Made by a program: the position numbers and the translations under genes
In this document: piece by piece, positions 1,193-23,235 of the stretch
Numbering within the stretch: the stretch's first letter is position 1
How the letters are laid out: the number at the start of each line of letters is the position of its first letter
The notes under the pieces: generated by a model
What the model saw: the letters and a program-made list of their open reading frames with translations, nothing else
The model's database searches: none
What the model was told of the DNA's origin: nothing
NCBI RefSeq assembly: GCF_014843005.1
Contig: NZ_JACYXM010000001.1
Coordinates: forward strand, 310,001-374,000
From: Rhodanobacter sp. DHG33
Lineage (GTDB): Bacteria > Pseudomonadota > Gammaproteobacteria > Xanthomonadales > Rhodanobacteraceae
DNA: 64,000 nucleotides
Reading direction: 5' to 3'

Positions 1193-1197
1193 GGGCT

Positions 1198-6088: not shown

Positions 6089-6145
6089 ATCCCCTTTCCG
6101 GCAAGCCTGTGCCAGCCGGGCAAACCTGCAACACGGAGTCACCCC

Positions 6146-8512: not shown

Positions 8513-9640
8513 TCACCGCCGCGGTGCCAGCATCGCGGCAGTGATGCCCGCTTCCACCAGGTTTGCCGGCAACGCCAGACCCAGTGCGAGATGGGCACAG
8601 GCTTCGGCCATGGCGGCGCTGGTCTGGATGCCATAGCCGCCTTGTGCGGCAACCCAGAAGAAGCCTTCCGCATCGGGTGCGAAACCGCCCACCAGATCGC
8701 CTTCCGTGCCGACGAAGCTGCGCAGGCCGGCCCAGCTCCGCGTCGGGCGGTTGATCGTCATCGTGGTGGCCTGCTCGATGCGGTCGATGCCCAAGGCGAT
8801 GTCGAAATCCTCCGGCTGCACGTCGTGCGGCGGCACCGGGTCGGCGTTGGCGGGCGAGCCCAGCAGCAGGCCGGCATCGGGCTTGAAGTAGAAGCTCTCC
8901 TCCGCATCGATCACGAAGGGCCAATGCGACGTGTCGAGGCCCTTGGGCGGCTCGAACAGGAAGGCGGTGCGCCGCTTCGGCTGCAGGCCCAGCGGCGCCA
9001 CGCCGGCGAGGCGCGCCACCTCGTCCGCCCACGCGCCCGCGGCGTCGAGCAGCAGCGGCGCGCGGTACACCGCTTCGCCGCAGTCGATGTTCCACTGCCC
9101 CTGCCCGCGTTCGATCGAGCGGATGGCCACGTCGACGCGCAGCGTACCGCCGCGCTGGCGCAGGCCGCGCAGGAAACCCTGGTGCAATTCGTTGACGTCG
9201 ATGTCGGCCGCGCCGGGCTCGAGCATGCCGATCTGCGCGGCCTCCGGCTTCAGCACCGGCACCATCGCCTGCACCTCGTCGGCATCGAGCAGGCGCAGGT
9301 CGGGGATGTGCGCGCGGTTCTCCACGTACATCGCACGCACCGCATCCGCCTGTTCGGCGCTGCCGATCACCAGCGTGGGGCGCTGCGCCAGGATGGGGTG
9401 CTCGGCGAAACCTTCCGGCGGATGCTCGAGAAACGGCCGCGTGGCCCGCGACAGCGCGCGCACCTGTGCCGACCCGTAGGTTTCGCTGAACAGCGCCGCG
9501 GAGCGTCCCGTGGAATGCATGCCCGGCCACGCCTCGCGCTCCAGCACCAGCACGCGCGCGTGCGGCGCCATGAACCACGCGACCGAAGCGCCGGCCATGC
9601 CGGCACCGATGACGATGGCGTCGAAGTCGTTCGCCTGCAT
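8513..9640 (-). CDS. FAD-dependent D-amino-acid (D-arginine-type) dehydrogenase
   Basis: A 375-residue DAO-family flavoprotein. The N-terminal dinucleotide-binding motif is VIGAGMAGASVAWF, followed by HSTGRSAALFSETYG, AEHPILAQRPT, ADIDVNELHQGFLRGLRQRG, LQPKRRTAF and LLLGSPANADPV, and a C-terminal flavin motif GGYGIQTS. These segments closely resemble D-arginine dehydrogenase (DauA) of Pseudomonas, which oxidises many D-amino acids to 2-oxo acids. The position after GRSAA that is His in DauA appears to be Leu here, so substrate range may differ. The gene follows the DAACS symporter by 2 bases, suggesting uptake and oxidation of the same D-amino acid. Confidence 0.85.
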   Translation of the reverse strand: MQANDFDAIVIGAGMAGASVAWFMAPHARVLVLEREAWPGMHSTGRSAALFSETYGSAQVRALSRATRPFLEHPPEGFAEHPILAQRPTLVIGSAEQADAVRAMYVENRAHIPDLRLLDADEVQAMVPVLKPEAAQIGMLEPGAADIDVNELHQGFLRGLRQRGGTLRVDVAIRSIERGQGQWNIDCGEAVYRAPLLLDAAGAWADEVARLAGVAPLGLQPKRRTAFLFEPPKGLDTSHWPFVIDAEESFYFKPDAGLLLGSPANADPVPPHDVQPEDFDIALGIDRIEQATTMTINRPTRSWAGLRSFVGTEGDLVGGFAPDAEGFFWVAAQGGYGIQTSAAMAEACAHLALGLALPANLVEAGITAAMLAPRR

Positions 9641-9642
9641 GT

Positions 9643-10920
9643 TCAATCCTGTTTCGTGTGGCCTTCCCCGTTTGCCGGGGAAACGTTGGAAGTGTCGTTG
9701 CGCGATTGCCGTGCGACCACGCTGGCCACGGTGAGGTCGGCGGTGACGTTGCCCAGCGTGGCGAACACGTCGGGCAAGGTATCCACCGCCAGCATCAGGC
9801 CCAGCGGCGCCAGCGGCACGCCCATCGCCTGCGCCACCGGCAGGTTGGTCGCCATGAAGGTGACCTGGCCGGGCAGGCCCACCGAACCCAGGCTGATCAC
9901 CACGGCCAGCGCCGCGGCGGCGGCGAGCTGCGCGGCGCCCACGTCGGTGCCGGTGGCCCACGCGATGAAGCACGCCGAGGCGATGTACTGCACCGGGCTG
10001 GTGAGCCGGCACAGCGACACCGCCATCGGCAGCACCAGCGCGGTGACCTGCTGCGGATAGCCCAGTCGCCGCTCCGCGCTTTCCAGCATCGCCGGCAGCG
10101 AAGCGAGCGAGGACTGCGTGCTGGCCGCCACCGCCTGCGCCGGCGCCAGCGCGACCACGAAGCGGCGCAGACGCTCGCCGCCCCACAGCACCGCCACCGG
10201 CAGCATCAGCACGGTGACCACGAGGTACAGGATGATTTCCACCAGCACATACACGCCCAGCGCGCGCACCATGCCCAGACCGGCACGCGCGCACACGGCG
10301 AGGATCAGCGCGAACACGCCCAGCGGCGCCAGCCACAACACCCAGCGCACGATCACGATCATCGCGTCGGCCATGGCCTGGAAGAATTCCACCAGCATCG
10401 CGCGGCGCGACGGCTGCAGCTGCGTGAGCGCGAAGCCGAGGAACAACGCGAACACCACCACCGGCAGCATCGCGCTCTGCGCCGCGGCCATCAGCGCGTT
10501 GCTGGGCACGATGCCGGCGAACCAGTCGGCCCAGCCCGGTGCCGAGACTGCCGTGGCGTTTACGGGGTGGCCGCTCAGCGCCGCGCCCAGTGCCGGGTTG
10601 TGCGGAAACATCGCCAGCAACGGCGGCGCCAGCAGCGCGGCGACCGCCGCCCCCAATGCCAGGATCGCGATGATGGCAATGAGCGCGCGCCGCGCGATCC
10701 GCCCGGAAGCCGCTGCATCGCTGGCCGTGTTCACGCCCACCACCACCAGCGCCAACACCAGCGGCACCACCGTCATCTGCAGCGCGTTCAACCACAGATG
10801 GCCGATGGGCTGCGCCACATTTGCCGCGTGCTGCGCCCAGGCCGGCGCCCAGGTCGCCAGCGCCAGCCCGGCCAGTGCGCCCGCAACCAAACTGGATAAA
10901 ACCCGCGTGGTGGCGCTCAT
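9643..10920 (-). CDS. Dicarboxylate/amino acid:cation symporter (DAACS)
   Basis: A 425-residue membrane protein with about eight hydrophobic helices and family landmarks: TVVPLVLALVVVGV near the N-terminus, the serine-rich re-entrant loop AASTQSSLASLPAML, and the second hairpin region GSVGLPGQVTFMATNLPVAQAMG, all typical of the GltP/SstT/DctA superfamily. Substrates of relatives include glutamate, aspartate, serine and C4-dicarboxylates. Its ATG overlaps the stop of the upstream L,D-transpeptidase-like gene (ATGA), and the D-amino-acid dehydrogenase follows by 2 bases, so a D- or L-amino acid released from peptidoglycan is a reasonable candidate substrate (inference). Confidence 0.9.
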   Translation of the reverse strand: MSATTRVLSSLVAGALAGLALATWAPAWAQHAANVAQPIGHLWLNALQMTVVPLVLALVVVGVNTASDAAASGRIARRALIAIIAILALGAAVAALLAPPLLAMFPHNPALGAALSGHPVNATAVSAPGWADWFAGIVPSNALMAAAQSAMLPVVVFALFLGFALTQLQPSRRAMLVEFFQAMADAMIVIVRWVLWLAPLGVFALILAVCARAGLGMVRALGVYVLVEIILYLVVTVLMLPVAVLWGGERLRRFVVALAPAQAVAASTQSSLASLPAMLESAERRLGYPQQVTALVLPMAVSLCRLTSPVQYIASACFIAWATGTDVGAAQLAAAAALAVVISLGSVGLPGQVTFMATNLPVAQAMGVPLAPLGLMLAVDTLPDVFATLGNVTADLTVASVVARQSRNDTSNVSPANGEGHTKQD

Positions 10921-11687
10921 CGGCCGGCCTTCATGTCGGGCAGCTGCCATGCGTGGCGCAGGCGCGCGTATTCGTCCTGCGGCAACAGCACGAACACCGG
11001 ATGCGCCTGCGGCTTCAGCCACGCCAGCAGGCGCTGCATGGTGTCCGGCGTCATCGCGGTGCAACCGGTGGTGCCCGTGGTCGGCGACGACCACAGGTGC
11101 GCGAAGATGCAGCTGCCGCCACGCGCCACGCCGTCCGGGTTGTGCTCGATCACGAAACCGATGCGGTAGGCCTGGTCGCCGTGCATGTGCAGGTCGCGCC
11201 GCATCGGTTCGCTGGAACCCTTGAGTGCTGCCTCGCCCACCTTCGCCGTATCGGCAATGCGGTTGTAGAGCGGCGTGCCGCTGACGTCCATGCAGTAGTC
11301 GGTGGCAGTGAGCGCGAGATACGGCATCGACGTGTCCACATGCGCTGCGTAGCCGAAGGTGCTGCCGATGCGGAACACCCCGGCCGGGCTGCGGCCGTCG
11401 CCTTCGTGCTTCTGCGGGCCACCCTGCTGCGCCGGGCTCAGGCCAAGGCCCCAGGCCGAGCCGCTCTGACCGATCACCACTGGCTTCGCCGCGCCGACTT
11501 CATGCCACGCGCCACCGTGGTTGCGCTGGTAGGTGCGCAGCGTCCCTTCGATCGTGTTCCAGTCGGGCACGGTGACCAGCACCATCTGGTCGGCACTGGA
11601 CCAGGCATCAGCCGGATCCGTGGCGGCAATGGCATGGCCCGCGAAGGCGAGGCCGGCGATCAGCAAGGCGACGAAATGGCTACGCAT
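10917..11687 (-). CDS. Secreted L,D-transpeptidase (YkuD-type) family protein
   Basis: A 256-residue protein with a signal peptide (MRSHFVALLIAGLAFAGHAIA). The catalytic region carries GSCIFAHLW and TTGCTAMTP, giving the His and Cys of the YkuD/ErfK fold in the COG3786-like subgroup; DGRSPAGVFRIGSTFG upstream is typical of these proteins. They cross-link or trim peptidoglycan peptides at meso-DAP. The start at MRSHF (11687) is preferred because it opens the signal peptide. It overlaps the symporter start by ATGA. A repeat cluster separates it from the RpiR gene, so it may be transcribed separately from the epimerase arm. Confidence 0.82.
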   Translation of the reverse strand: MRSHFVALLIAGLAFAGHAIAATDPADAWSSADQMVLVTVPDWNTIEGTLRTYQRNHGGAWHEVGAAKPVVIGQSGSAWGLGLSPAQQGGPQKHEGDGRSPAGVFRIGSTFGYAAHVDTSMPYLALTATDYCMDVSGTPLYNRIADTAKVGEAALKGSSEPMRRDLHMHGDQAYRIGFVIEHNPDGVARGGSCIFAHLWSSPTTGTTGCTAMTPDTMQRLLAWLKPQAHPVFVLLPQDEYARLRHAWQLPDMKAGR

Positions 11688-11714
11688 GGATGACGAATCC
11701 TCCATCGAAGGGAC

Positions 11715-11822
11715 CCCTCTCCCTTCGGGAGAGGGTGCCGGCAGGCGGGTGAGAGTTCGGGCGGAGACAGGCGTTGCGGCAAGACCGCACCCTCACCCCA
11801 ACCCCTCTCCCGGCGGGAGAGG
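11715..11822. repeat. Pair of short palindromic (REP-like) hairpins
   Basis: Two related hairpins lie in the gap between the L,D-transpeptidase-like gene and the RpiR gene. One is ccctctccc-ttc-gggagaggg (11715-11735, 9-bp stem); the other is cctctccc-ggc-gggagagg (11804-11822, 8-bp stem). Each is flanked by gaggg-tgcc or gcaccctcacccc segments that mirror each other, so the whole reads as an inverted pair, as in bacterial REP/BIME elements. Such elements often act as transcription or mRNA-stability boundaries. Confidence 0.7.
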
Positions 11823-11861
11823 AGCTCAAGCTCGTGGCGCCGATGAAAACCTGGGCGCCCA

Positions 11862-12719
11862 TCAAGGCTCCAGCACCTGCTGGATGCGTTCCAGGTTGGC
11901 GACAAGCTGCGCATGGCGCGTGTCGTCGCCTTCGCAAAGCTGCACGAACAGCACGTCCAGCAGGTGCTGCAGCGCGGACTGGTAGAGCAGCGACTGGATG
12001 TACGGCCGCTCGTCGTGCGCGGACACCAGCAGGGCCGCATCGGCCAGCGTGCGCAGCGGATTGGCGCTGTGCCGGGTCACGCTGACCACCATGCCGCGAC
12101 GCTCGCGGAAATGCCGGCCGATCTTGCACAGCGCCGGATGGTTGCCGTGCTCGGAGAACACCAGCAGCACGTCGCCGGGGCCGGCGGCGGAGACGTTGGC
12201 GGCCATCCGTGCGATGTCGAAGTTGTGCACCACGGGCAGGCCGAGCAGCGCGAGCTTGTACGCGAAGCCGCGCGCGTGGATGTCGTCCTCGCCGAGGCCG
12301 ATGAGGAACACCTTGCCGCTGCGGCCGGCCTTGGCCATGGCCTTGATCACCGCGGCCAGCGTCTGCGGCGGGTTGATGAGGCGCGTGGCCTCTTCCGCCT
12401 CGGACTTGCGCCGCCACAGGCCGGTAGCCAACGACTCGCCGGTCTCGCCATGGACCTGCGCGGCGGTTTCCACGTCGTCGCCGTTGTCGGCGCGCGCGAT
12501 CGCCTCGCCCACCGAATACTTGAGGTCGGGATAACCCTTGAAGCCCAGCTTCTGGGTGAACTTCACCACGCTGGACTGACTGATGCCCAGCGCGTTGGCG
12601 AGCTGCTGCGAGGAGTAGTCGCGCAGCAGCTGTGCGTTGTCCAGCACGAAGTCGGCGATGCGGCGTTCCACCGCCGACATCTGGTCGCGCTCGGAGCGGA
12701 TCTTTACCAGGGGAGACAT
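11862..12719 (-). CDS. RpiR/MurR-family transcriptional regulator
   Basis: A 285-residue regulator with the family architecture: an N-terminal HTH_6 domain (ALGISQSSVVKFTQKLGFKGYPDLK, residues about 45-70) and a C-terminal SIS sugar-phosphate isomerase-like domain (VFLIGLGEDD, near residue 130, to VLLVFSEHGNHP). SIS domains of this family bind phosphosugars or related ligands; MurR binds N-acetylmuramic acid 6-phosphate. It sits 13 bases downstream of the epimerase gene, so it probably controls the divergent block centred on 15285-15450. No murQ or murP partner is visible. Start ATG 12719 gives the standard length. Confidence 0.9.
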   Translation of the reverse strand: MSPLVKIRSERDQMSAVERRIADFVLDNAQLLRDYSSQQLANALGISQSSVVKFTQKLGFKGYPDLKYSVGEAIARADNGDDVETAAQVHGETGESLATGLWRRKSEAEEATRLINPPQTLAAVIKAMAKAGRSGKVFLIGLGEDDIHARGFAYKLALLGLPVVHNFDIARMAANVSAAGPGDVLLVFSEHGNHPALCKIGRHFRERRGMVVSVTRHSANPLRTLADAALLVSAHDERPYIQSLLYQSALQHLLDVLFVQLCEGDDTRHAQLVANLERIQQVLEP

Positions 12720-12732
12720 GCGGCACTCCGCC

Positions 12733-13833
12733 TCAGACCACGCTGCCGGTTTCCAGCCCGCGGATCTCGCGGATGCCCAGGCCCGGCGCATCCGTCACCG
12801 AGATTTCGGACTCGTTGAAGTTCACGCCGCCATCCACCGGATTGAACTGGCACAGCGAAGGGCCGTCCAGATCCACCTTGGTGATCGCGTTGGACTTGGC
12901 CACCGCTACATGCACCGCCGCCGCCACGCTGATCGAGGTTTCCAGCATGCAGCCGATCATGCATTCCACGCCGTGCAGCGCAGCGATGTCGGCGATCTTG
13001 ATGGCGTTGGAGATGCCGCCGGTCTTCATCAGCTTGATGTTGATGATGTCGGCGGCGCGCAGGCGGATCAGGTCGATCACCTCCATCGGCCCGAACACGC
13101 TTTCGTCGGCCATGATCGGCGTGTGCACGCGCTCGGTGACGTAGCGCATGCCTTCCAGGTCGCGCGCCTTCACCGGCTGCTCGACCAGCTCCAGCTTGAT
13201 GCCGGCCTCTTCCAGCGTCTGCAGCGCATACACCGCCTGCTTGGCCGTCCAGCCCTGGTTGGCGTCCAGCCGCAGCAGCGCGCGGCCTTCGACCGCCGCG
13301 TAGATCGCCTTGACGCGCTCGATGTCGACGCCGATGTCTTTGCCCACCTTGATCTTCAGCGACTCGAAACCGCGCTCCACCGCGGCGACGGAATCGGCCA
13401 CCATCTTGTCGATGTAGTCCACGCTGATGGTGATGTCGGTGGTGATCACCGGATCGCCGCCGCCTAGCAGCTTGTACAGCGGCGCGCCGTAGAGCTGGCC
13501 CCATAGGTCGTACAGCGCGATCTCCACCGCCGCCTTGGCGCTGGTGTTCTTCTCCATCGACGACTGCACCAGATGAGTCAGCCGGTTGAGCTCGGCCACG
13601 TCCTGGCCGAGCAGGCGCGGCGTGATGTAGTGGCGGATCGCGTCGGTGATCGAGCCGTGGGTGTCGCCGGTAATCACCGCGGTGGCCGGCGCCTCGCCGT
13701 AACCGACGTGGCCGGTGTCGGTGTGCACCATCACCACGATGTCCTCGACCTGGTTCACGGTGCGCAGCGCCGTCTTGAACGGTGTCTTCAGCGGCACCCG
13801 CAGCATGCCGAATTGGATGTCGGTGATTTTCAT
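12733..13833 (-). CDS. L-Ala-D/L-Glu (dipeptide) epimerase
   Basis: An enolase-superfamily, muconate-lactonizing subgroup protein of 366 residues. The catalytic set is visible: SLKIKVG (KxK, acid/base Lys), LRLDAN, ELVEQP and MADES (three metal ligands), and IKLMKTGG (second catalytic Lys). These motifs and the length match YcjG/YkfB enzymes, which epimerise L-Ala-D-Glu from murein to L-Ala-L-Glu so that ordinary peptidases can cleave it. It lies between the NlpC/P60 endopeptidase and the RpiR regulator, which strongly supports a murein-peptide role. Start ATG 13833 directly precedes the conserved ITDIQFG strand. Other dipeptides cannot be excluded. Confidence 0.9.
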   Translation of the reverse strand: MKITDIQFGMLRVPLKTPFKTALRTVNQVEDIVVMVHTDTGHVGYGEAPATAVITGDTHGSITDAIRHYITPRLLGQDVAELNRLTHLVQSSMEKNTSAKAAVEIALYDLWGQLYGAPLYKLLGGGDPVITTDITISVDYIDKMVADSVAAVERGFESLKIKVGKDIGVDIERVKAIYAAVEGRALLRLDANQGWTAKQAVYALQTLEEAGIKLELVEQPVKARDLEGMRYVTERVHTPIMADESVFGPMEVIDLIRLRAADIINIKLMKTGGISNAIKIADIAALHGVECMIGCMLETSISVAAAVHVAVAKSNAITKVDLDGPSLCQFNPVDGGVNFNESEISVTDAPGLGIREIRGLETGSVV

Positions 13834-13874
13834 GGGCGACCGTGTCCGTGTGGTTCGTGGAAGGGTGATGGCGA

Positions 13875-15284
13875 TCAGCGGCGCATGCGCACGATGCTGG
13901 TCATGTGGTCGATGAAGGTGGAGCCGTCCTTGCCATAGAGCATCGGCAGCAAGGGCGTCACCGACACCGCGTTGAGCTTGACGTGCGCTACGGAACCATC
14001 CGGCTTGAGATAGCTCATGCCCAGCACGTCGTGGATCACCCAGGGCTGCCCCTGCCACTGGCCCAGCACCATCATCACGTGGCCGGGAATGTAGACCAGG
14101 TCGCCGAGCCGCAACTGCATCGCCGCCTGCAGACGCACCGCGTGGCTGTCGGCGGCGGTGAACAGGCGATGCTCCAGCGCGGGGCTCTTGGCCTGGTCGC
14201 CGGTGTTGCGCGGCATCTGCACGCCGAGACTGCGGTACACGTCGGAGACGAAGCCCGAGCAGTCGCGGCCGTCGTAGGAATGGCCCCAGCCGTAGCGCTC
14301 GCCGAGGAACTTGAATGCCTGGGTGATCAGATTGCGCGGCGTCAGCGGCAGATAGTCGGCAGCGGTATCGGTGTTCTTCTGCAGCAGCGCAGGCACCAGC
14401 TCCAGGCTGCCGTCGTCCTTGCGGATGGGCAGCTGCAGCGTATACGCCGCGTACGGCGTCTGGCCGTTCACCGGCTGGTCGGCCGGCAGCGTGGCGAGCA
14501 GCGGCACGCGGGTGGCCATGTCCAGCTGCAGTTGCGACACCGCCGGCTGTTCGGGCGTGAACACGGTGCGCACGCTGGGGCCGGTGACGATGCGGTACGG
14601 CGTCTTCGCGGCATAGGCCAGCACCGCGTCCTTGGCGCCTTCCGCCACGTACCGCTTCTGCATCCATGCCGCGTAGCGCGGGCTCACCACGAACAGCCAC
14701 TGGCCGTCGCGGCTGGTATGCACGATGGCCACCGGCGTGCCGGGAAACTCGGCGCTTTCCTGGAAGCGGTCGATGTCGTGGTCGTCGTCGCTGCTGAACA
14801 CGCGCAGCGTGGTGGGAAAGGTACGCAACGCGGCGCGCTCCACCACCAGACCGTAACGCACCGTGGTCTGCGCGGGGATGGTGTCCAGCGCCATATCGTT
14901 TTCGATCTTGTCCAGTGCAGTCGTCGGCACCGGCTGGCCGTGCTCGTCGTACAGCGCGTGCGTGGGCCGCTGCGACAGGTGCCCGATCCACGCTGCTACT
15001 TGTTCGCGCGGCAGTGTGGCAGGTAGCGCCGCCAGGTCATGCATGGTGGGATCGAGCTGGAACAGCTTTGCGTTCTGCGCATCGACCTGCGCACGAGAAA
15101 GAATCTGCCGGTCGGGCTGCGCCTGCAGGCCGATCCAGAATGCCGGCGTCAGCTGGGCATCGCCCACGCCGAGCACCCCGCTGGGCGGGATGGGCAATGC
15201 ATTCGCGGGCACGTCGCGCGCCTGCATCGGCGCATGGACCAGCGCGAGCGCGAAAACCAGGGCTGTGAGAACCGGACGCTTCAT
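13875..15284 (-). CDS. Secreted SH3/NlpC-P60 (C40) peptidase
   Basis: A 469-residue protein with a signal peptide (MKRPVLTALVFALALVHAPMQA). The N-terminal half contains SH3b-like segments (HALYDEHGQPVPT, LRTFPTTLRVFS) and the C-terminal domain is NlpC/P60: catalytic Cys342 in GRDCSGF, His402 in IPGHVMMVLG and His418 in WVIHDV. The architecture resembles the gamma-D-glutamyl-L-diamino acid endopeptidase group (YkfC), which releases L-Ala-D-Glu, the substrate of the epimerase encoded next. It is the first gene of the minus arm, starting at ATG 15284 beside the divergent promoter region. Confidence 0.9.
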   Translation of the reverse strand: MKRPVLTALVFALALVHAPMQARDVPANALPIPPSGVLGVGDAQLTPAFWIGLQAQPDRQILSRAQVDAQNAKLFQLDPTMHDLAALPATLPREQVAAWIGHLSQRPTHALYDEHGQPVPTTALDKIENDMALDTIPAQTTVRYGLVVERAALRTFPTTLRVFSSDDDHDIDRFQESAEFPGTPVAIVHTSRDGQWLFVVSPRYAAWMQKRYVAEGAKDAVLAYAAKTPYRIVTGPSVRTVFTPEQPAVSQLQLDMATRVPLLATLPADQPVNGQTPYAAYTLQLPIRKDDGSLELVPALLQKNTDTAADYLPLTPRNLITQAFKFLGERYGWGHSYDGRDCSGFVSDVYRSLGVQMPRNTGDQAKSPALEHRLFTAADSHAVRLQAAMQLRLGDLVYIPGHVMMVLGQWQGQPWVIHDVLGMSYLKPDGSVAHVKLNAVSVTPLLPMLYGKDGSTFIDHMTSIVRMRR

Positions 15285-15345
15285 CGTTTTACCCCCTTCA
15301 CCGGCATGTCACCGGGCACGGCGACATGGCCGTGCGGCATGCCAA

Positions 15346-15377
15346 GGAATATTTGATTCCATGTAATTTCATTGTCA
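15346..15377. promoter_or_regulatory. Candidate RpiR-type operator in the divergent promoter region
   Basis: The 166-base gap between the two arms contains a strongly AT-rich core. It holds the palindrome ggaat-atttg-attcc (15346-15360), followed directly by tgtaatttcattgtca (15362-15377), which resembles the TGTAATT-N-AATTACA sites of RpiR-family HexR. The position between two divergent start codons (15284 and 15451) is right for joint control of both arms by the linked RpiR/MurR regulator. Binding is inferred, not shown. Confidence 0.45.
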
Positions 15378-15450
15378 GCATAAATTATTGACCGCCATTT
15401 GCAAGCGTGCTACACAACGCCGCTGGGGAAGCATCGCGGGGTTCTATCTG

Positions 15451-16929
15451 ATGGCGAACGTGGCAACCACTACACGCTGGAGGACGCGTCTGCTGTTCGC
15501 ATCGGCTCTGCTGGCCGTTCCCTTCGCAGCCACCTGGGCGACCGACACGCCGGCCAGCATCGCCAGGCTGGTCGACGCCGGCCAGTTCCAGGCCGCCGAC
15601 GCCGACATCGCTCAGGCGCTGAATCAGACCGGCCTGGATACCGCCACGCGCGATGCCTTGCTGTTCCAGCGCGAACGCATGCGCCGCATCCGCTACGACT
15701 TCTCGCTCGATGCCGATGGGTTGAAGGCGCGCATCCGCAAGCAGGTGCCCGACCTGCGCGACGACGAATTCCGCAACTGGGACGAACACGGCCTGCTCGA
15801 ACGCATGGTGATCGACGGCCGCGTGATGTACTTCAAGCGCGACGCTTCCAACATCTTCCGCCTCAGCGCCGAAGCCGCCGCGCGCCGCGCCCATCCCGCG
15901 CCGTTCGACGACGACCCCATGGGCGTGCTGAACGACTACCACCGCGAGGTGCGCTCGGCGGCATTGCAGGAGAACCGCAGCAGCGTGCTGCCGCATCGCG
16001 TACGCATCACCCAGACGCTCACCGTCGATGCCGACGCGGTGCCGGCCGGCAAGACCGTGCGCGCTTGGATTCCCTATCCGAAACCGCTGCCGGGCCAGCA
16101 GGACGATATCCGCTACGTCAGCAGCGAACCCGCGAAACACGTCATCGCGCCCGATGCCGCGCCGATGCGCACGGCGTATTTCGAAAAACCCGCGCAGGCC
16201 GGCAAGCCCACCACCTTCTCGGTCACCTACGAACTCACCCTCTCCGCGCAGTACCACGCCATCGATCCGGCGAAGGTGGTGCCGGCGGCGATCACGACCG
16301 AGCTCGCGCCCTACGTGGCCGAACGGCCGCCGCACCTGGTGTTCACCGAGCAGCTGCGGCTGTTCTCGCGGCAGGTCGTCGGCAACGAGAAGAATCCGTA
16401 CCGCATCGCGCAGAAGCTGTTTGCCGCGGTGGACGAGATCCCGTGGGCCGGCGCGCGCGAATATTCCACCATTCCCAACCTCAGCGACTACACCTTGCAT
16501 GCCGGCCACGGCGACTGCGGGCAGCAGACGATGCTGCTGATCGCGCTGCTGCGGTTGAACGGCATCCCCGCGCGCTGGCAGTCCGGCGCGATCTTCGCCG
16601 ACCACGGTTACAACGACATCCACGACTGGGGCCAGCTCTACCTCGCGCCCTACGGCTGGGTGCCGATGGACGTCACCTTCGGTCGCCTGCATCCGGGCGC
16701 GCAAGCCAAGCCCGGCGACGATGCGCTGGAATGGTTCTACCTCGGCGGGCTGGATGCCTGGCGCGTCGCCTTCAACAGCGACTTCGGCCAGGGCTTCACG
16801 CCGGCCAAGCAGTCGTTCCGCTCCGACAACGTGGATTCGCAGCGCGGCGAAGTCGAATGGAGCGGCGGCAACCTCTACTACGACCAGTGGAACTACAGCT
16901 TCGACTGGTCGCCGGTCGACTCTCATTGA
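15451..16929 (+). CDS. Secreted transglutaminase-like (papain-fold) protein
   Basis: A 492-residue protein starting MANVATTTRWRTRLLFASALLAVPFAATWA, a signal peptide. The C-terminal half carries a transglutaminase-like triad: Cys356 in GDCGQQT, His391 in IHDWGQLYL and Asp407 in PMDVTFG. The N-terminal half is a less conserved all-beta or mixed region. Bacterial members of this fold are usually proteases or amidases rather than cross-linkers. As first gene of the plus arm of the peptidoglycan block it may hydrolyse stem peptides in the periplasm, but the substrate is unknown. The ATG at 15451 is preferred over 15388 because it opens the signal peptide. Confidence 0.8.
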   Translation: MANVATTTRWRTRLLFASALLAVPFAATWATDTPASIARLVDAGQFQAADADIAQALNQTGLDTATRDALLFQRERMRRIRYDFSLDADGLKARIRKQVPDLRDDEFRNWDEHGLLERMVIDGRVMYFKRDASNIFRLSAEAAARRAHPAPFDDDPMGVLNDYHREVRSAALQENRSSVLPHRVRITQTLTVDADAVPAGKTVRAWIPYPKPLPGQQDDIRYVSSEPAKHVIAPDAAPMRTAYFEKPAQAGKPTTFSVTYELTLSAQYHAIDPAKVVPAAITTELAPYVAERPPHLVFTEQLRLFSRQVVGNEKNPYRIAQKLFAAVDEIPWAGAREYSTIPNLSDYTLHAGHGDCGQQTMLLIALLRLNGIPARWQSGAIFADHGYNDIHDWGQLYLAPYGWVPMDVTFGRLHPGAQAKPGDDALEWFYLGGLDAWRVAFNSDFGQGFTPAKQSFRSDNVDSQRGEVEWSGGNLYYDQWNYSFDWSPVDSH

Positions 16930-16948
16930 TTTCCTCATCGATTCCGCA

Positions 16949-18217
16949 ATGAACCCACCCACCATGGACACCCTGCCCTCCACGCATTTCGACGGCGTGG
17001 ACCTCGTCGCGCTCGCCGAACGGCATGGCACGCCGCTGTACGCCTATTCGGCCAGCGCGATCCGCCAGCGCATCGCCGGCCTGCAGCAGGCGCTGCACGG
17101 CATGGACGCGATGATCTGCTATGCAGTCAAGGCCAACGGCAACCGCGCCGTGCTCGAGCTGATGGCGCAGGCCGGACTGGGTGCGGACATCGTTTCCGCC
17201 GGCGAGCTGCAGCGCGCGCTGCGCGCCGGCATGCCACCCGAGCGCATCGTGTTCTCCGGCGTGGGCAAGAACGACGAGGAGATCGCCGAGGCGCTGGCCG
17301 CGGGCATCCAGCGCTTCAACGTGGAATCGCTGGACGAACTGCACGCCATCGAGCGCATCGCCGGCGAACGCGGCGCGATGGCGCGCGCGGCGGTGCGCAT
17401 CAATCCCGACGTGGATGCGCTCACCCACGCCAAGATTTCCACCGGCAAGTCGGAAAACAAGTTCGGCGTGAGCATCGCCGAGGCGCGCCGCTGGTTCGAT
17501 GCGCGCGCCACGCTGCGGCATGTGCGGCTGGACGGCCTGCACGTGCACATCGGCTCGCAGATCCTCTCGCTGGAACCGTACCGCCTGGCGCTGCAGCGCG
17601 TGGCTGCGTTCTGGCGCGAACTGCGCGATGCCGGCCATCCCATTGCCAGCATCGACGTGGGCGGCGGCCTGGGCGTGCGCTACCGCGACGGCGATGTGCC
17701 GATTGCGCCGGCCGATTACGTGGCGGTGATCCGCGAGGCACTCGCCGGCTTCGAGGGGCGCCTGCTGCTGGAACCGGGCCGCTACCTCGTGGCCGAGGCC
17801 GGCGTGCTGCTGACGCGCGTGCTGCGCGTCAAGCAGGGCGAAGCACGCAACTTCCTGGTGCTGGACGCGGCGATGAACGATCTCGCCCGCCCCAGCCTGT
17901 ACGACGCCTGGCACGACATCGTGCCGGTGTCGGACAAAGTGCGGCCGCCAGCCGTCTACGACGTGGTGGGCCCGGTCTGCGAAACCGGCGACACCTTTGC
18001 GCAGGCCCGCACATTGCCTACCTGCGCAGCGGGCGATCTGGTGATGATCCGCGGCACCGGTGCCTATGGCTCCTCCATGGCCTCCACCTACAACTCGCGG
18101 CCGCTGGCCGCCGAAGTGCTGCTCGACCGCGGCCGGTTCGCCCTGGTGCGCCGACGGCAGACGCTGGACGACATGCTGGCCGGCGAACAGTCGGCCGGCC
18201 AGTGGGAGACGACATGA
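16949..18217 (+). CDS. lysA: Diaminopimelate decarboxylase
   Basis: A PLP-dependent fold-type III decarboxylase of 422 residues (417 if ATG 16964 is used). Markers are Lys61 in YAVKANGN (Schiff base), KSENKFG, HVHIGSQ, DVGGGLGVRY, EPGRYLVAEAG, Cys344 in CETGDTF and the C-terminal GAYGSSMASTYNSRP. It converts meso-DAP to L-lysine. LysA normally ends lysine biosynthesis. Here it sits inside a murein-peptide block and its stop overlaps the next gene by ATGA, so it may process meso-DAP released from peptidoglycan. Whether it is also the only biosynthetic LysA of the cell cannot be seen. Confidence 0.93.
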   Translation: MNPPTMDTLPSTHFDGVDLVALAERHGTPLYAYSASAIRQRIAGLQQALHGMDAMICYAVKANGNRAVLELMAQAGLGADIVSAGELQRALRAGMPPERIVFSGVGKNDEEIAEALAAGIQRFNVESLDELHAIERIAGERGAMARAAVRINPDVDALTHAKISTGKSENKFGVSIAEARRWFDARATLRHVRLDGLHVHIGSQILSLEPYRLALQRVAAFWRELRDAGHPIASIDVGGGLGVRYRDGDVPIAPADYVAVIREALAGFEGRLLLEPGRYLVAEAGVLLTRVLRVKQGEARNFLVLDAAMNDLARPSLYDAWHDIVPVSDKVRPPAVYDVVGPVCETGDTFAQARTLPTCAAGDLVMIRGTGAYGSSMASTYNSRPLAAEVLLDRGRFALVRRRQTLDDMLAGEQSAGQWETT

Positions 18218-19887
18218 AACTCATCGCGCGCATGAAACTCGCTCTCCCTTCCAGGGCACTCGGAAAGCGACCACGGATGACCGCAACTTCGAAGAACGAG
18301 GAAAGGGTTGGCACGAAGGCCCTCCTTTGCTTCGCCCTGCTGGCCACGTTCACGCTTGCCGGCACTGCACAGGCCGCCACGTCGGCAACACCTTCGGCGA
18401 ACGGCGACTACGACCGCATCCTCGACACCGTGGTCGCGCGCTACCACCTGCCCGGCATTGCGCTGGGCGTAATCGAAAACGGCAAGGTGGTCTATGTCGC
18501 CACGCGTGGCGAAACCGTCGCCGGCTCAGGGCAGAAAATCACGCCGCGCACGCTGTTCAAGATCGCCTCCAACAGCAAGGCGATGACCACCGCCCTGCTT
18601 GGCCGCCTGGTCGACCAGGGCAAGCTGCACTGGGACGACCCGGTGACGAAATACCTGCCCGACTTCAGCATGTACGACCCCTGGGTCACGCAGAACATGC
18701 GCGTGGCCGACCTGCTCACGCACTCCAGCGGCCTGCCCGAGGGCGGCGGCGACCTGATGCTGTGGCCGGAGCCGAACGCGTTCACCCGCGCCGACATCAT
18801 CCACGGCCTGCGCTACATCAAGCCCGGTTACAGCTTCCGTTCGAAATACGAGTACGACAACCTGCTCTACGTGGTCGCCGGCGAAGTCGCCGCCGCCGCG
18901 GGCGGTGCGCCTTACGAAACGCTGATGCATCGCGAGGTGTTCCAGCCGCTGGGGCTTTCGCGCTGCCAGGTCGGCGAGTGGAACCGCGATACGGTGGGCG
19001 ACGTGGCCGCACCGCACGCGCGCGAGGACGGCCGCAACATCCCGCAGCAATCGGACAACCCGGTCATCCCCGCGATCACCTCCGCTCCGGCCGGCGGCAT
19101 CCGCTGCGACCTGGACGACATGCTGACCTGGGCGCGCAACTGGCTGGTGCCCACGCCGGCGCAATTGCAATGGCTGTCGGCGGAACAGCGCCACGTGCTG
19201 CAGTCGCCGCACATGCTGATCCCCGTCTCCGAGCAGCGCCGCGACTGGGACAACAGCCACATCATGGCCTACGGCTACGGCTGGCGCATGACCGACGTGG
19301 ACGGCACCTGGACGGTGTGGCACACCGGCACGCTGGACGGCATGTACTCCGAACTGATGCTGCTGCCCGACCGGAAGAACGGCTTCGTGTTCCTCATCAA
19401 CGGCGAGGCGGAATCCGCGCGCACCGTGCTCGGCGAAGCGCTGCTCAAGCACTTCACCCAGCCGGACGATACGCACGATGTCACGTGGTACGCGGATGCG
19501 CAGCAGCGCGCCGACGAGCAGGCCAGCAAGCGCGCCGCCGCGCCCGACACCTCGAAGGCCACCCCTGTCGCGCCTGCTGCCTTGGCCGCGTGGACGGGCC
19601 GCTACCGCGACCCGTGGCTGGGCGATCTCCTGTTGTGCCCGGAGAACGGCCGCGTGCATTTCGCCGCCGCTAAGTCGCCGCGGCTCAACGGCGACGTGAT
19701 GCGCTTGGGCAACCGCGACCTGGTGCACTGGAGCAACCACGGCATGGACCCCGATGCCTGGCTGGATTTCCATCCCGCGCAAGGCGGCCAGCCTGCCACG
19801 CTGACCATGGCCAAGGTCGATGCGCTGGGCGACTTCAGTTCCGACTACGAAGACCTGCACTTCGTGCGCACCGGAGACTGCCCGTGA
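18214..19887 (+). CDS. S12 serine hydrolase (class C beta-lactamase-like) with C-terminal DUF3471
   Basis: 557 residues from ATG 18214, which overlaps the lysA stop (ATGA); ATG 18277 would give 536 residues and a more usual signal peptide (core ALLCFALLATFTLAGTAQA). The penicillin-binding fold motifs are SNSK (SxxK nucleophile), YDN (YxN) and HTGTLDG (in place of KTG). The C-terminus (AWTGRYRDPWLGDLL onward) resembles DUF3471. S12 enzymes include D-Ala-D-Ala carboxypeptidases and D-amino-acid amidases/aminopeptidases; the location beside a VanX-type dipeptidase favours a D-peptide substrate. True beta-lactamase activity seems less likely. Confidence 0.85.
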   Translation: MKLIARMKLALPSRALGKRPRMTATSKNEERVGTKALLCFALLATFTLAGTAQAATSATPSANGDYDRILDTVVARYHLPGIALGVIENGKVVYVATRGETVAGSGQKITPRTLFKIASNSKAMTTALLGRLVDQGKLHWDDPVTKYLPDFSMYDPWVTQNMRVADLLTHSSGLPEGGGDLMLWPEPNAFTRADIIHGLRYIKPGYSFRSKYEYDNLLYVVAGEVAAAAGGAPYETLMHREVFQPLGLSRCQVGEWNRDTVGDVAAPHAREDGRNIPQQSDNPVIPAITSAPAGGIRCDLDDMLTWARNWLVPTPAQLQWLSAEQRHVLQSPHMLIPVSEQRRDWDNSHIMAYGYGWRMTDVDGTWTVWHTGTLDGMYSELMLLPDRKNGFVFLINGEAESARTVLGEALLKHFTQPDDTHDVTWYADAQQRADEQASKRAAAPDTSKATPVAPAALAAWTGRYRDPWLGDLLLCPENGRVHFAAAKSPRLNGDVMRLGNRDLVHWSNHGMDPDAWLDFHPAQGGQPATLTMAKVDALGDFSSDYEDLHFVRTGDCP

Positions 19888-20597
19888 AACCTCAGCTGCT
19901 GCTTGCCGCCCTGCTCGCACTGCCGTTCGCCGCGAGAGCCGACCAGCCGCCGCCGCAGCTTTCGCCCGCGAAAACCGCCGCGCAGGCGAACCTGGTGGAC
20001 ATCCGCAGCCTGGTGCCCGACATCGCCGAGGACATCAAGTACGCCGGCAGCGACAACTTCGTCGGCCGGCCGGCGGATGGCTACCTCGCACCCAAGTGCC
20101 TGCTGCTGCGTCCAGCCGCCGAAGCGCTGGCCCGCGTCGAGCGCGACCTGCGCGCGCAGCACTATCGGCTCAAGCTGTGGGACTGCTACCGCCCTGCCCG
20201 TGCGGTGGCGGACTTCGTGCGCTGGGCGCACGACCTCGGCGACCAGCGCAGCAAACCGCAGCACTACCCGAACCTCGACAAGTCGCAGCTGCTGGGCGAC
20301 TACATCGCACCCGTCTCCGGCCACAGCCGCGGCGCCACCGTGGACCTCACCATGGAACGCTGCGCCACCGCCGACACGCACTGCACGCCGCTGGACATGG
20401 GCACCGGCTTCGACTGGTTCGGCGTACGCGCCCACACCGACGCGCCCGGCATCAGCGCGGAACAGCACGCCCATCGCCTGCTGCTGCGCTCGGCGATGGA
20501 GCACGAAGGCTTCCAGAACTACATGCTGGAATGGTGGCACTACACGCTCACGCCCGAACCCACGCCGCAATGGCTTTACGACGTGCCCGTGCAATGA
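19884..20597 (+). CDS. D-Ala-D-Ala dipeptidase, VanX/DdpX type, secreted
   Basis: A 237-residue M15D metallopeptidase with a GTG start overlapping the previous stop (GTGA, 19884-19887). A signal peptide (MKPQLLLAALLALPFAARA) is followed by the VanX landmarks: CYRPARA (Arg103), SGHSRGATVDLT (zinc ligands His147 and Asp154) and EWWHYT (catalytic Glu216 and ligand His219). VanX-type enzymes split free D-Ala-D-Ala. Outside glycopeptide-resistance clusters they serve D-Ala recovery from peptidoglycan. No vanR/vanS/vanH/vanA genes are nearby, so resistance is not indicated. Two S12 hydrolases flank it. Confidence 0.9.
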   Translation: MKPQLLLAALLALPFAARADQPPPQLSPAKTAAQANLVDIRSLVPDIAEDIKYAGSDNFVGRPADGYLAPKCLLLRPAAEALARVERDLRAQHYRLKLWDCYRPARAVADFVRWAHDLGDQRSKPQHYPNLDKSQLLGDYIAPVSGHSRGATVDLTMERCATADTHCTPLDMGTGFDWFGVRAHTDAPGISAEQHAHRLLLRSAMEHEGFQNYMLEWWHYTLTPEPTPQWLYDVPVQ

Positions 20598-20680
20598 ACG
20601 CCACATCTTCGCCGCACCCCATGCACTCCCATCCCTGCCGCCGGGAGCGCGGCGCAAGCTTCGGCGCCCGGAGAACCACC

Positions 20681-21736
20681 ATGCGCTTTGCCGCCACCTT
20701 CGTCGTATCGATGCTCACCGCCGGCGCAGCAGGCGCCTCGACCACCGACGCCATCAACAACGCCAACCAGCTGATGCAGAAATACACCGGCGACGTGCCC
20801 GGTGCCTCGCTGTTGGTCATCAAGGACGGCAAGCCGCTGCTCGACCGCGGCTACGGCATGGCCGATCTCGAACAGCATGTCGCCGCCACCTCCGCCACCG
20901 ACTACCGCCTCGCCTCCGTCACCAAGCAGTTCACCGCTGCCGCGATCCTGCTGCTGGCGCAGGACGGCAAGCTGAAGCTCGACGACTCGATCCGCCACTG
21001 GCTGCCCTCGTTGCCCGCCTTCACCGACCAGGTGACGCTGCGCGAACTGCTCAGCCACACCGGCGGCCTGCTCGACTACGAAGACCTGGTGCCGGCCGAC
21101 CGCACCGCACAGCTCAACGACGGCGATGTGCTGCGCATGGTCTCCGCCACCACGCACGGCTATTTCCCGCCCGGCAGCGCCTACCGCTACAGCAACACCG
21201 GCTACGTGCTGCTCGGGCTGGTGGTGGAGAAGTCCTCGGGCATGGCGCTGCAGGACTTTCTCGCGCGGCGCATCTTCCAGCCGCTGCACATGGACCACAC
21301 CCTACTCTACGTGCACGACGTCAAGACTGTGCCGAACCGCGCTTACGGCTACAGCGAGACCGACGGCCGCTGGCAGCGCACCGATCAGGACATGACCAGC
21401 GCCACCCGCGGCGACGGCGGCATCTATTCCAACATCGACGACCTCGCGAAATGGGATGCCGCGCTGTACGACGGCCGCCTGCTGAGCGATGCCTCGCGCA
21501 AACTGGCCTTCACCGCGCATGTGAAAGTCGTCGGCGAGCCGTACGAAGCCGGTTACGGTTTCGGCTGGCGCATCACCGGCGACACGCTGTGGCATTCCGG
21601 CGAGAGCATCGGCTTCCGCAACGTGATCGTGCGCTGGCCGAAGCAGCACCTCACGGTGATCCTGCTCAGCAACCGCAACGATCCGGAACCCTACCGCACC
21701 GCGCTGGCGATCGCCGAGCCGTTCCTGCAACACTGA
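20681..21736 (+). CDS. S12 serine hydrolase (beta-lactamase/D-peptidase family)
   Basis: A 351-residue secreted protein (signal peptide MRFAATFVVSMLTAGAAGA). Motifs are SVTK (SxxK), YSN (YxN, in YRYSNTGY) and HSGES (in place of KTG), with GASLLVIKDGKPLLDRGYG at the N-terminus as usual for the family. Start ATG 20681 is preferred: GGAG lies about 9 bases upstream and the signal peptide begins there; an earlier in-frame ATG at 20594 overlaps the previous stop. It is a distant paralogue of the S12 gene two positions upstream and lacks the DUF3471 tail. A D-stereospecific peptidase or esterase role is inferred from context. Confidence 0.85.
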   Translation: MRFAATFVVSMLTAGAAGASTTDAINNANQLMQKYTGDVPGASLLVIKDGKPLLDRGYGMADLEQHVAATSATDYRLASVTKQFTAAAILLLAQDGKLKLDDSIRHWLPSLPAFTDQVTLRELLSHTGGLLDYEDLVPADRTAQLNDGDVLRMVSATTHGYFPPGSAYRYSNTGYVLLGLVVEKSSGMALQDFLARRIFQPLHMDHTLLYVHDVKTVPNRAYGYSETDGRWQRTDQDMTSATRGDGGIYSNIDDLAKWDAALYDGRLLSDASRKLAFTAHVKVVGEPYEAGYGFGWRITGDTLWHSGESIGFRNVIVRWPKQHLTVILLSNRNDPEPYRTALAIAEPFLQH

Positions 21737-21760
21737 GCCATCCATCGGGACATCGCATCC

Positions 21761-22576
21761 ATGCACGCCTCGCCCGACACGCCGCGCAGCCGCTTCGCCA
21801 TCGTCCGCCTTGCGGCACTGCTGGCCGCCTTTCTGCTGCTCGCCGCCTGCGCCCACGCGCCGCCCCGCAATCCGTTGGCGACCTGGGTGCCTTCGCCGAA
21901 CTACGACATCCGCCGGCCGGTGCTGATCGTGCTGCACTTCACCGACGAGCACTCCGCGCAGGAAGCGCTGGACACCCTGCGCACGCGCAACAGCGGCGGT
22001 CCGGTGAGTGCGCACTACCTGATCGGCAGCGACGGCCACGTCTACCAGCTGGTGCCCGACCAGCTGCGCGCATGGCAGGCCGGGCCGGGACGCTGGGGCA
22101 CCATCACCGACCTCAACTCCGCCTCCATCGGCATCGAGCTGGACAACGACGGCCACTCGCCGTTCGCGCAGCCGCAGATCGCCAGCCTGCTGCGCCTGCT
22201 GGCCGACCTCACCACCCGACTGCATATCCCGCCCACGCAGATCATCGGCCACGAGGATCTCGCGCCCGGCCGCAAGGACGATCCCGGCCCGCTGTTCCCG
22301 TGGCAGCAACTCGCCGATGCCGGTTTCGGCCGCTGGCCGCACGCGCCGCTGTGCGATCCGCCGCCCGGTTTCGATCCGTGGATGGCGATGGCCGTGGTCG
22401 GTTATGCGCTGGACGATCGCGCCGCCGCCGTGCGCTCCTTCCATCACCACTTCCGTGGCATGGAGGGCGACACGCTGGATGCGCAGGATCTGCGCATCCT
22501 CTACAACCTCGCGCAGCAGATCGAGCCCAGCGCCAACACCTGCACCGCACCTTCGCCGCAGGCGCCCACCAACTAA
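21761..22576 (+). CDS. amiD: N-acetylmuramoyl-L-alanine amidase, AmiD-type lipoprotein
   Basis: 271 residues with a lipobox LLAAC (lipid-modified Cys30), so probably an outer-membrane lipoprotein. The Amidase_2 domain shows zinc ligands His59 (IVLHFTD), His164 (IIGHEDLAPGRK) and Asp174 (DDPGPLF), with Glu126 in SIGIELDN. A C-terminal alpha-helical segment resembles the peptidoglycan-binding tail of E. coli AmiD. The enzyme frees the stem peptide from MurNAc-containing fragments, the entry reaction for the other enzymes of this block. It is the last gene of the plus arm, 24 bases after the S12 gene; its stop overlaps the convergent gene's stop. Confidence 0.9.
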   Translation: MHASPDTPRSRFAIVRLAALLAAFLLLAACAHAPPRNPLATWVPSPNYDIRRPVLIVLHFTDEHSAQEALDTLRTRNSGGPVSAHYLIGSDGHVYQLVPDQLRAWQAGPGRWGTITDLNSASIGIELDNDGHSPFAQPQIASLLRLLADLTTRLHIPPTQIIGHEDLAPGRKDDPGPLFPWQQLADAGFGRWPHAPLCDPPPGFDPWMAMAVVGYALDDRAAAVRSFHHHFRGMEGDTLDAQDLRILYNLAQQIEPSANTCTAPSPQAPTN

Positions 22577-23235
22577 GGACGGGCCAGCACGCTCGCCGTG
22601 TAGCTCTCCACCACCAGGCTGAAGGGCTGGTTGTCCTGCGTGTACAACAAGGCGCGGTGTTGCAGCACGTGCTGCGGTATCGCCAATGGCTGGCCGCTTG
22701 CCGGCGGCAGCGCCGCACCGCTGTCCCAGCCCTGCGGCAACGGCGACCACAGCAGGTCGGCGGAAAGCGTCTGGCGGTGGAAATGCAGCGGCTGCACTAC
22801 TTTGCCGAACGGCACGTCGCTGGTGTCGAGCTGCCGGTTCATCGCCGCCGTCAGCCGGGACGGCACGTACCAGTTGTCGGCGTCGGAAAGCACCGTGTCG
22901 CCGCAGGCCAGCTGCACGCGGCGGTAGCGCACCGGTTCGCTTGCGGCTATGCCAAGCAGTGCGCGCCCGTCCGGCGGCAGCGGCTTGTCTTCGCCCTGCA
23001 CGCGATGCGCCAGGATCTTCGCCTGCGCCGCCAGGTGATGTTCGCCGCACCAGTGCTCCAGGGTCAGCGTGGCGCTGGGATGGCTCAGCAGTTCGGCATT
23101 GAGCGTCTGCAGTTCGGCCAGCGCTTGCGTGCGGGCGAGCGGTGTGTCCGGCCAGCTGTCTCGCGCGGCGACGACGGGTGCGACCGCCAGCACCAGCGCG
23201 CCACATGCCGCGAGGTATCGCGGGCAGGTACTCAC
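22573..23235 (-). CDS. Secreted chorismate-lyase-like protein
   Basis: A 220-residue protein with a GTG start (23235) that overlaps the trpE stop (GTGA). A signal peptide (CPRYLAACGALVLAVAPVVAA) precedes a domain with the UbiC order of elements: RYRRVQLACG, NWYVPSRL, PFGKVV and a final RALLYTQDNQPFSLVVESY. In E. coli UbiC two Arg and one Glu hold the product; here the first Arg and the Glu have counterparts, but the second (AGRTVVP in UbiC) is replaced in ADNWYVP. Export and the missing Arg make chorismate lyase activity doubtful. Coupling to trpE is striking because TrpE also uses chorismate. Confidence 0.65.
   Translation of the reverse strand: MSTCPRYLAACGALVLAVAPVVAARDSWPDTPLARTQALAELQTLNAELLSHPSATLTLEHWCGEHHLAAQAKILAHRVQGEDKPLPPDGRALLGIAASEPVRYRRVQLACGDTVLSDADNWYVPSRLTAAMNRQLDTSDVPFGKVVQPLHFHRQTLSADLLWSPLPQGWDSGAALPPASGQPLAIPQHVLQHRALLYTQDNQPFSLVVESYTASVLARP

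Follow-up and report, generated by a model that had tools for sequence, protein, structure and literature searches.

Genes for the catabolism of murein peptides are known to lie together in several bacteria. In Bacillus (ykfABCD-dpp) and in B. cereus (ykfB-ykfC) an epimerase gene adjoins the gene of an SH3b-NlpC/P60 endopeptidase, and the B. cereus scheme, in the portion of PMC2954226 drawn on here, pairs a signal-like NlpC protein with a signal-less epimerase. In E. coli, ycjG-mpaA-ycjY-pgrR likewise unites murein-peptide catabolism genes with a nearby regulator. The N-acetylglucosamine (GlcNAc) clusters of Caulobacter, as far as the excerpt of PMC13046382 describes them, combine a TonB receptor, catabolic enzymes, an inner-membrane transporter and a regulator. 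Here we describe a block of twelve adjacent genes at positions 8513..22576 of a 64,000-nt stretch (the window) of Rhodanobacter sp. DHG33 (NZ_JACYXM010000001.1, 310,001-374,000). With a probability of roughly 0.72, this block is an optional locus that would use peptidoglycan stem peptides as nutrients under the control of its own RpiR-family regulator.

The block shares the epimerase-NlpC/P60 pair, with its signal-like and signal-less N termini, with Bacillus. However, here the pair sits among a VanX-type dipeptidase, two S12 hydrolases (S12a and S12b), a transglutaminase-fold hydrolase (TGL), a YkuD-like protein, an amidase, LysA, a D-amino-acid dehydrogenase (DAO) and an RpiR regulator, and a DAACS symporter (in many relatives also DUF819 and a TonB receptor) takes the place of the dipeptide ATP-binding cassette system. 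Compared to E. coli, the endopeptidases differ, MpaA being unrelated to NlpC/P60 (PMC2954226, same portion). The E. coli epimerase is homologous to that of the block (32% over 250 aa), whereas the ycjG stretch that we saw holds no VanX, LysA, S12 or TonB receptor. Its regulator is annotated PgrR, a family which we take not to be RpiR-type. The resemblance to the Caulobacter clusters is found in the relatives of the block; the window strain has no receptor and the cargo is probably a peptide instead of a sugar. We place the block among the murein-peptide catabolism clusters; what stands out are the receptor, DUF819, TGL and the apparently re-tooled SIS domain of the regulator. No published description of the cluster was found in the literature searched, most subscription journals being outside the search.

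Composition, conservation and loss of the block

The original prediction, drawn from the window alone, had named twelve adjacent genes, at least nine of them with murein-peptide or D-amino-acid chemistry, in two arms that diverge from one control region. Pfam found every named family in its position, and nine of the twelve genes indeed fit that chemistry, the remaining three being the SDF symporter, RpiR and TGL. Outward from 15284, the minus arm consists of NlpC/P60 with SH3b, the MR/MLE epimerase, RpiR, YkuD, SDF/DAACS and DAO; the plus arm runs Transglut_core (TGL), LysA, S12a, M15/VanX, S12b and Amidase_2. At its outer limits, 8513 and 22576, the block closes with the stop codons of DAO and the amidase, respectively. 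Neighbours within an arm mostly overlap or lie at most about 100 bases apart, and the gap between RpiR and YkuD measures 174 bases. Signal-like N termini, judged by eye, are present in NlpC, YkuD, TGL, S12a, VanX and S12b and were not seen in the epimerase, LysA, the dehydrogenase or the regulator.

A comparison of gene order across relatives had been set beforehand as a check, and it showed the arms to be co-conserved. Among 147 genomes of the family (26 genera, with 11 genomes of the same genus; the window genome is G000), TGL is present in 71 genomes of 16 genera, and an epimerase at 85% identity or more, a threshold set after inspection of the match list, in 57; the other 90 have no block-type epimerase. 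All 57 epimerases adjoin TGL: in 52 examined loci, in the window and, by coordinates, in four further genomes. Loci were examined for 60 of the 70 non-window TGL genomes, and in 8 of these 60 TGL stands without the block epimerase or NlpC; the block-type epimerase is missing from 14 TGL genomes in all, which belong to two genera. Similar arrangements recur among the GTDB loci described below, several of which have TGL adjoining an M61 peptidase and another TonB receptor. In four GTDB loci (L138, L142, L144 and L152) an M61 aminopeptidase precedes TGL (with a TonB receptor in three of the four), then come YkuD and SDF, and no epimerase, NlpC or promoter core was found in them.

A search of the GTDB collection with TGL returned at least 592 stretches, at least 401 of which encode a TGL relative; the best 80 are referred to as named loci, a sample skewed to close relatives. 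An epimerase at 75% identity or more accompanies TGL in 68 of them (named block loci), and 61 of these span more than 18 kb. Since these 61 were selected by TGL and epimerase, both genes are present in 61/61 by construction, and matches below about 50% identity or 40% length are left uncounted. On this basis RpiR occurs in 61 loci, NlpC in 60, YkuD, S12a and VanX in 57 each, SDF in 55, S12b in 49 (45 on the expected strand), LysA in 44, DAO in 36 and the amidase (AmiD) in 23, with the flank often ending before the latter. The named loci come from Rhodanobacter, Dyella, Luteibacter, Frateuria, Fulvimonas, Pinirhizobacter, Rudaea, Lysobacter, Luteimonas, Pseudoxanthomonas, Thermomonas, Povalibacter and Steroidobacter, as well as from metagenome-assembled genomes. 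The three genera that were looked up belong to Rhodanobacteraceae, Lysobacteraceae and Steroidobacteraceae, and gene order and orientation are retained in three families. The 12 named loci outside the 68 comprise two blocks truncated at a contig end and ten loci with different surroundings.

Close relatives can do without the block. Four of the 11 genomes of the genus (G069, G106, G117 and G127) gave no match at E 1e-20 to either TGL or the epimerase. In G069 the segment 3821..22576 is absent as one piece: DNA matching 485-3820 sits 19 bases from DNA matching 22577-24777, which leaves a clean empty site beside trpE, and the missing segment includes the PepSY and siderophore-receptor genes that neighbour the block. 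The same left neighbour (up2) adjoins trpE in G127, and trpE is the sole match in the stretch of G106. Therefore, the absence from four of eleven genomes of the genus together with the clean empty site supports the view of the block as a dispensable, optional locus. Eight genomes (L199-L206) carry mini-blocks with YkuD and NlpC in 8/8 and the epimerase in 7/8, to which DUF819 (5/8), VanX (5/8), M19 (3/8), SDF (2/8) and DAO (1/8) are variably added; RpiR, TGL and the block receptor were not found in any of these mini-blocks. In four of them (L200, L201, L202 and L206) trpE lies within the 20 kb stretch.

The divergent control region and the SIS site of the regulator

The intergenic regions between the arms, when aligned, have a common layout: a repeat like GGAATA-N-N-T-N-ATTCC, 20 bases, ATAAATTATTGACC, 17 bases and TACACA. 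In the window, the inverted repeat GGAATATTTGATTCC (15346..15360) is a candidate RpiR operator, and the near-invariant element ATAAATTATTGACC with the -10-like TACACA (15380..15416, plus strand) is the predicted promoter of the plus arm, with a -35 TTGACC at 15388 within ATAAATTATTGACC, TACACA at 15411 and a spacer of 17 bases. The 7-mer GTCAATA occurs in 70/70 intergenic regions (69 named loci and the window) and AAATTAT in 69/70. The core ATAA[AT]TTATTGAC is found in 67 of the 68 named block loci, in both truncated blocks and in none of the 10 other TGL loci. The whole combined expression fits 50 of 81 sequences (80 named loci and the window); in these 50 the repeat always precedes the core by 20 bases, and the -35/-10 spacer measures 17 bases in 48 and 18 in 2.

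The original prediction of a single divergent control region is borne out at the genome scale, where the pattern ATAAWTTATTGACN{17,28}TACACA occurs in 54 of the 147 family genomes, in a single copy each and always at the block. The reversed pattern has no match in the 147 genomes, and the exact pattern is missing from three block genomes. The exact palindrome, searched for in 13 genomes, is present in a single copy, located at the block, in five of the nine genomes that bear the block and was not met in the four without it; the remaining four block-bearing genomes have imperfect forms or none. The control element was found in 0/8 of the regulator-less mini-blocks. A single block-specific element that is missing where the regulator is missing supports the notion of one block-specific regulon with the block RpiR as its likely binder. 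A generic sigma-70 scan listed no promoter in this region; TACACA breaks the last-T rule of the scan. A promoter of the minus arm was not located.

The regulator (11862..12719, minus strand; PF01418, PF01380) has the HTH_6 and SIS architecture of the MurR/RpiR phosphosugar regulators, such as SpNanR and the E. coli members, and shares with them a short inverted repeat as candidate operator (PMC12713135, in the part used here). The same part of that paper gives Ser135, Ser179, Ser181 and Thr184 as the phosphate ligands of SpNanR. We compared 68 block RpiRs, which are related and not independent sequences, at the positions that show the same spacing in the MurR alignment. Position 1 is Asp in all 68; position 2 is Ser in 64 and Cys in 4; position 3 is His in 54, Gln in 7, Phe in 3, Asp in 2 and Arg in 2, and never Ser or Thr; position 4 is His in 46, Gln in 19, Ala in 2 and Arg in 1. 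Contrastingly, E. coli MurR, YebK, AlsR and YfhH have Ser or Thr at positions 1-3 in 4/4, with position 4 varying (K, T, T, R). The Ser/Thr phosphate site of the SpNanR type was thus not found in the block RpiR: as judged from the alignment, two of the four phosphate positions have been lost and one retained, the fourth being uninformative. Nearby Glu, Arg and Asn residues are conserved in 68/68 sequences and one His in 67/68.

The family assignment RpiR/MurR made in the original prediction stands, as both domains are present, and sensing of MurNAc-6P is doubtful given the changed phosphate-binding positions. Because these positions are replaced and the block contains no evident sugar-phosphate gene, the effector is likely a peptide or an amino acid and not a phosphosugar, which is also the simpler guess.

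Proposed nutritional use, recycling and the import genes

Many relatives carry a fuller block than the window strain, and the observation is confirmed and larger than first described. Among the 61 long named loci, DUF819 is present in 45, between NlpC and TGL; a TonB-dependent receptor (CarboxypepD_reg/Plug/barrel) in 55, between TGL and LysA; and an M19 dipeptidase in 41, between LysA and S12a. In the window genome and its close relatives G022, G082 and G095, DUF819 was not found genome-wide, M19 gave no match at E 1e-20, and searches for the block-type receptor met only paralogues (at 27-36% identity in the window genome and, over fragments, at up to 39% in the other three). One would argue that the receptor or DUF819 had been relocated, but the genome-wide searches of the window genome found neither. 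All three genes are present in two genomes of the same genus, G041 and G054. The simplest reading is that the window lineage lost the receptor, DUF819 and M19, because same-genus genomes and other genera carry them.

Two side observations touch on these genes. The 14 matches at 27-36% in the window genome form an expanded paralog family of the receptor. In Rhodanobacter sp. B05 (L040 and L099) a block is seen in which NlpC, DUF819, the receptor and M19 were not found and an M61 gene is adjacent; this is apparently a separate slimming event.

DUF819 is named in a publication devoted to CPA/AT transporters (PMC8396727, in the passage available). Its location beside NlpC and the epimerase, shared by five of the eight mini-blocks, suggests a putative importer of L-Ala-gamma-D-Glu. 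The absence of the receptor, DUF819 and M19 from the window genome, together with the lack of an evident L-Ala-L-Glu peptidase among the twelve genes, leaves the description of the block as a self-contained system unsupported. As to the originally proposed route from stem peptides to L-Ala-L-Glu, lysine, D-Ala and pyruvate, the enzymes do fit stem-peptide catabolism; the step from D-Ala to pyruvate is doubtful because the dehydrogenase is closest to the D-arginine dehydrogenase DauA. Overall, the original interpretation is partly supported.

From the gene content we infer the substrates, the direction of flow, the localisation, the effector, the binding of the regulator and the nutritional role of the block as follows. 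Muropeptides or free stem peptides would reach the periplasm via the block TonB receptor in most named relatives; in the receptor-less window strain they might enter through porins or be supplied by turnover of the cell's own wall. The amidase would release peptides from N-acetylmuramic acid (MurNAc), the S12 hydrolases, VanX, YkuD and TGL would act on D-Ala and cross-link ends by trimming or opening them, and the secreted NlpC/P60 enzyme would cleave the bond between gamma-D-Glu and diaminopimelate (DAP) to give L-Ala-gamma-D-Glu. The dipeptide would be imported by a transporter (DUF819 in many relatives) and amino acids by the symporter. In the cytoplasm, the epimerase would form L-Ala-L-Glu, the second LysA would convert meso-DAP to lysine and the dehydrogenase would oxidise D-amino acids. 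The regulator may bind the divergent region and answer to a peptide or an amino acid instead of a phosphosugar.

Two lines of evidence bear on nutritional use as against housekeeping. The tripeptide-recycling ligase Mpl scores above its cut-off in 16/16 genomes, including four block-less genomes of the same genus. Its presence regardless of the block, together with the patchy distribution of the latter, favours a nutritional over a housekeeping role. Furthermore, an over-cut-off lysA match lies in a long open reading frame (ORF) of 873-1081 aa, a size like that of aspartokinase-LysA fusions, in 14/14 genomes searched. The block LysA was thus rejected as the sole lysA gene. A stronger, standalone-type match is confined to the 6 genomes with LysA in their block, because of which the block LysA is presumably an extra, catabolic copy.

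It could be that the block mainly processes turnover products of the cell's own wall in the periplasm, breaking them down instead of feeding on the walls of other cells, especially in the receptor-less window strain. The window lineage has kept all twelve genes without the receptor, DUF819 and M19, and a comparable intracellular route, ycjG-mpaA, exists in E. coli (PMC2954226, in the portion cited above). However, recycling by Mpl is available whatever the status of the block, the block-type epimerase is missing from 90 of 147 family genomes, and 55 of the 61 named loci have a TonB receptor, so that we consider this explanation unlikely. Alternatively, the block might scavenge or detoxify D-amino-acid peptides in general, e.g. 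peptide antibiotics or free non-canonical D-amino acids, cell-wall peptides being just one of its substrates. This would suit the DauA-type dehydrogenase, the two generic S12 hydrolases and the broad symporter family. It is very unlikely, as the murein stem is indicated by the epimerase, NlpC/P60 and the second DAP decarboxylase, NlpC is kept in 60/61 named loci, and even the mini-blocks hold on to NlpC, YkuD and, in seven of eight, the epimerase. That unrelated genes came together by accident can practically be dismissed: the gene content at the edges varies and a lone amidase homolog is left in one block-less genome, but order and orientation are kept in three families, a single block-specific control element is present, and the genes come and go jointly.

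Several results weigh against the use of stem peptides as nutrients by an optional locus. Apart from the lacking peptidase and import genes already named and the DauA-like identity of the dehydrogenase, the epimerase stays below curated NCBIfam cut-offs (NF041118 254.6 vs 500, NF011708 112.4 vs 343), as do VanX (NF033115 185.6 vs 320) and, with the AmpD model, the amidase (95.8 vs 143 bits), and the S12 and YkuD assignments are broad. In the YkfC subfamily, Asp256 of BcYkfC binds the free L-Ala amine (PMC2954226, same portion); the window NlpC has Asn at the equivalent position, as do 48 of 52 sequences, with Asp in 4 of 52, that position having been located from its separation of 18 to the catalytic Cys and not by alignment to BcYkfC. 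Each of DAO, LysA, M19 and DUF819 is lacking in 16-25 of the 61 named loci, and AmiD, present in 23 of the 61 where flanks often end earlier, varies as well. A class-wide search (369 genomes, at most four candidates scored per genome) met TGL outside the window genome in just 3 of 368 genomes, all labelled as the same order, although Steroidobacteraceae do occur among the named loci. In seven further genomes an epimerase at 57-77% identity is not beside TGL (mini-blocks), and in block-less G117 an amidase homolog remains beside trpE.

A more far-reaching proposal can be offered as a tentative possibility: in Lysobacterales and Steroidobacteraceae the locus might comprise a TonB receptor for cell-wall peptides, DUF819 as L-Ala-gamma-D-Glu importer, TGL as stem-peptide hydrolase and an SIS phosphosugar site rebuilt as a charged sensor of a zwitterionic cell-wall peptide or amino acid, with the window strain as a slimmed descendant without the importers. 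If true, these bacteria would have a route of their own for subsisting on cell-wall peptides (bacterial necromass), two uncharacterised families would gain candidate functions (DUF819 as cell-wall dipeptide importer and the TGL hydrolase), and a sugar-phosphate sensor domain would have been re-used for peptides. The patchy presence in close relatives and the empty site make direct tests easy.

Proteins of the two arms and neighbouring genes

On the minus arm, the NlpC/P60 endopeptidase (13875..15284; PF12913, PF00877; PDB 3m1u, E 2e-30) shows the SH3b-NlpC/P60 fusion of the YkfC subfamily, with conserved YGWG, RDCSGF and GHV motifs (Cys, His). A conserved Tyr lies in its SPRYAAW motif and is a candidate counterpart of Tyr118 in the BcYkfC SH3b1 domain. 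The YkfB-like L-Ala-D/L-Glu epimerase (12733..13833, minus; PF13378/PF02746) has the MR/MLE fold and matches the characterised L-Ala-D/L-Glu epimerase 1jpm at 350 bits over residues 1-354. Its motifs SLKIKVG, LRLDANQ, EQPV, ADES, NIKLMK and DLDGPS are conserved in 52 homologues, and DLDGP is common to E. coli YcjG; we take these motifs to hold the catalytic Lys and acid residues and the DxD dipeptide-binding motif. The YkuD-like protein (10917..11687, minus; PF03734), with a conserved Cys, is the weakest family call (23.7 bits vs a cut-off of 23.4), with a GC motif that is conserved but non-canonical; a sequence search of the PDB gave no relevant match, and the protein may be an L,D-transpeptidase or an L,D-carboxypeptidase. 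The DAACS-type symporter (9643..10920, minus) matches PF00375 at E 8.5e-75. The FAD-dependent dehydrogenase (8513..9640, minus; PF01266) is closest to DauA (PDB 3nyc, 446 bits); given the substrate preference that we presume for DauA, its main substrate may be other than D-Ala.

On the plus arm, the gene that the original prediction had left unnamed is predicted to encode a secreted transglutaminase-fold cysteine hydrolase, TGL (15451..16929; PF01841). Across 20 aligned sequences its Cys357, His392, Asp393 and Asp408 do not vary (alignment A1 numbering). The sole PDB sequence match at E < 0.001 is 3isr, a putative cysteine protease; Foldseek likewise returned 3isr, an uncharacterised Cytophaga protein, as the best fold match and otherwise distant transglutaminase folds. 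The mean predicted local distance difference test score of the AlphaFold model is 77.6. The second LysA (16949..18217, plus) scores 485.9 bits with the diaminopimelate decarboxylase model TIGR01048 (cut-off 297.9), and its closest solved relatives are diaminopimelate decarboxylases. A role as D-ornithine/lysine decarboxylase was discarded, the DokD model being far weaker (195 vs a cut-off of 700).

S12a (18277..19887, plus; PF00144; its ORF opens at 18202, so the start is uncertain) has a DUF3471-like tail, and its PDB matches include 2qmi. The VanX-type D-Ala-D-Ala dipeptidase (19884..20597, plus) carries an M15 domain (PF01427, 139.4 bits). S12b (20681..21736, plus; PF00144) falls into the D-peptidase/carboxypeptidase class, with PDB matches to Flp, 2qmi (which we take to be Pab87), an alkaline D-peptidase and a DD-carboxypeptidase. 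The AmiD-like N-acetylmuramoyl-L-alanine amidase (21761..22576, plus; PF01510) has the lipobox LAAC.

A PepSY-TM gene and a siderophore-type TonB receptor abut the block at 4409-8311 of the window. The receptor (6146-8311) was rejected as the receptor of the block, as it is of the siderophore type (TIGR01783, 272 vs a cut-off of 223.5) and as, in L036 and L037, neither it nor the PepSY-TM gene adjoins the block. The siderophore-type receptor does adjoin the block in L035, and in L097 both genes do.

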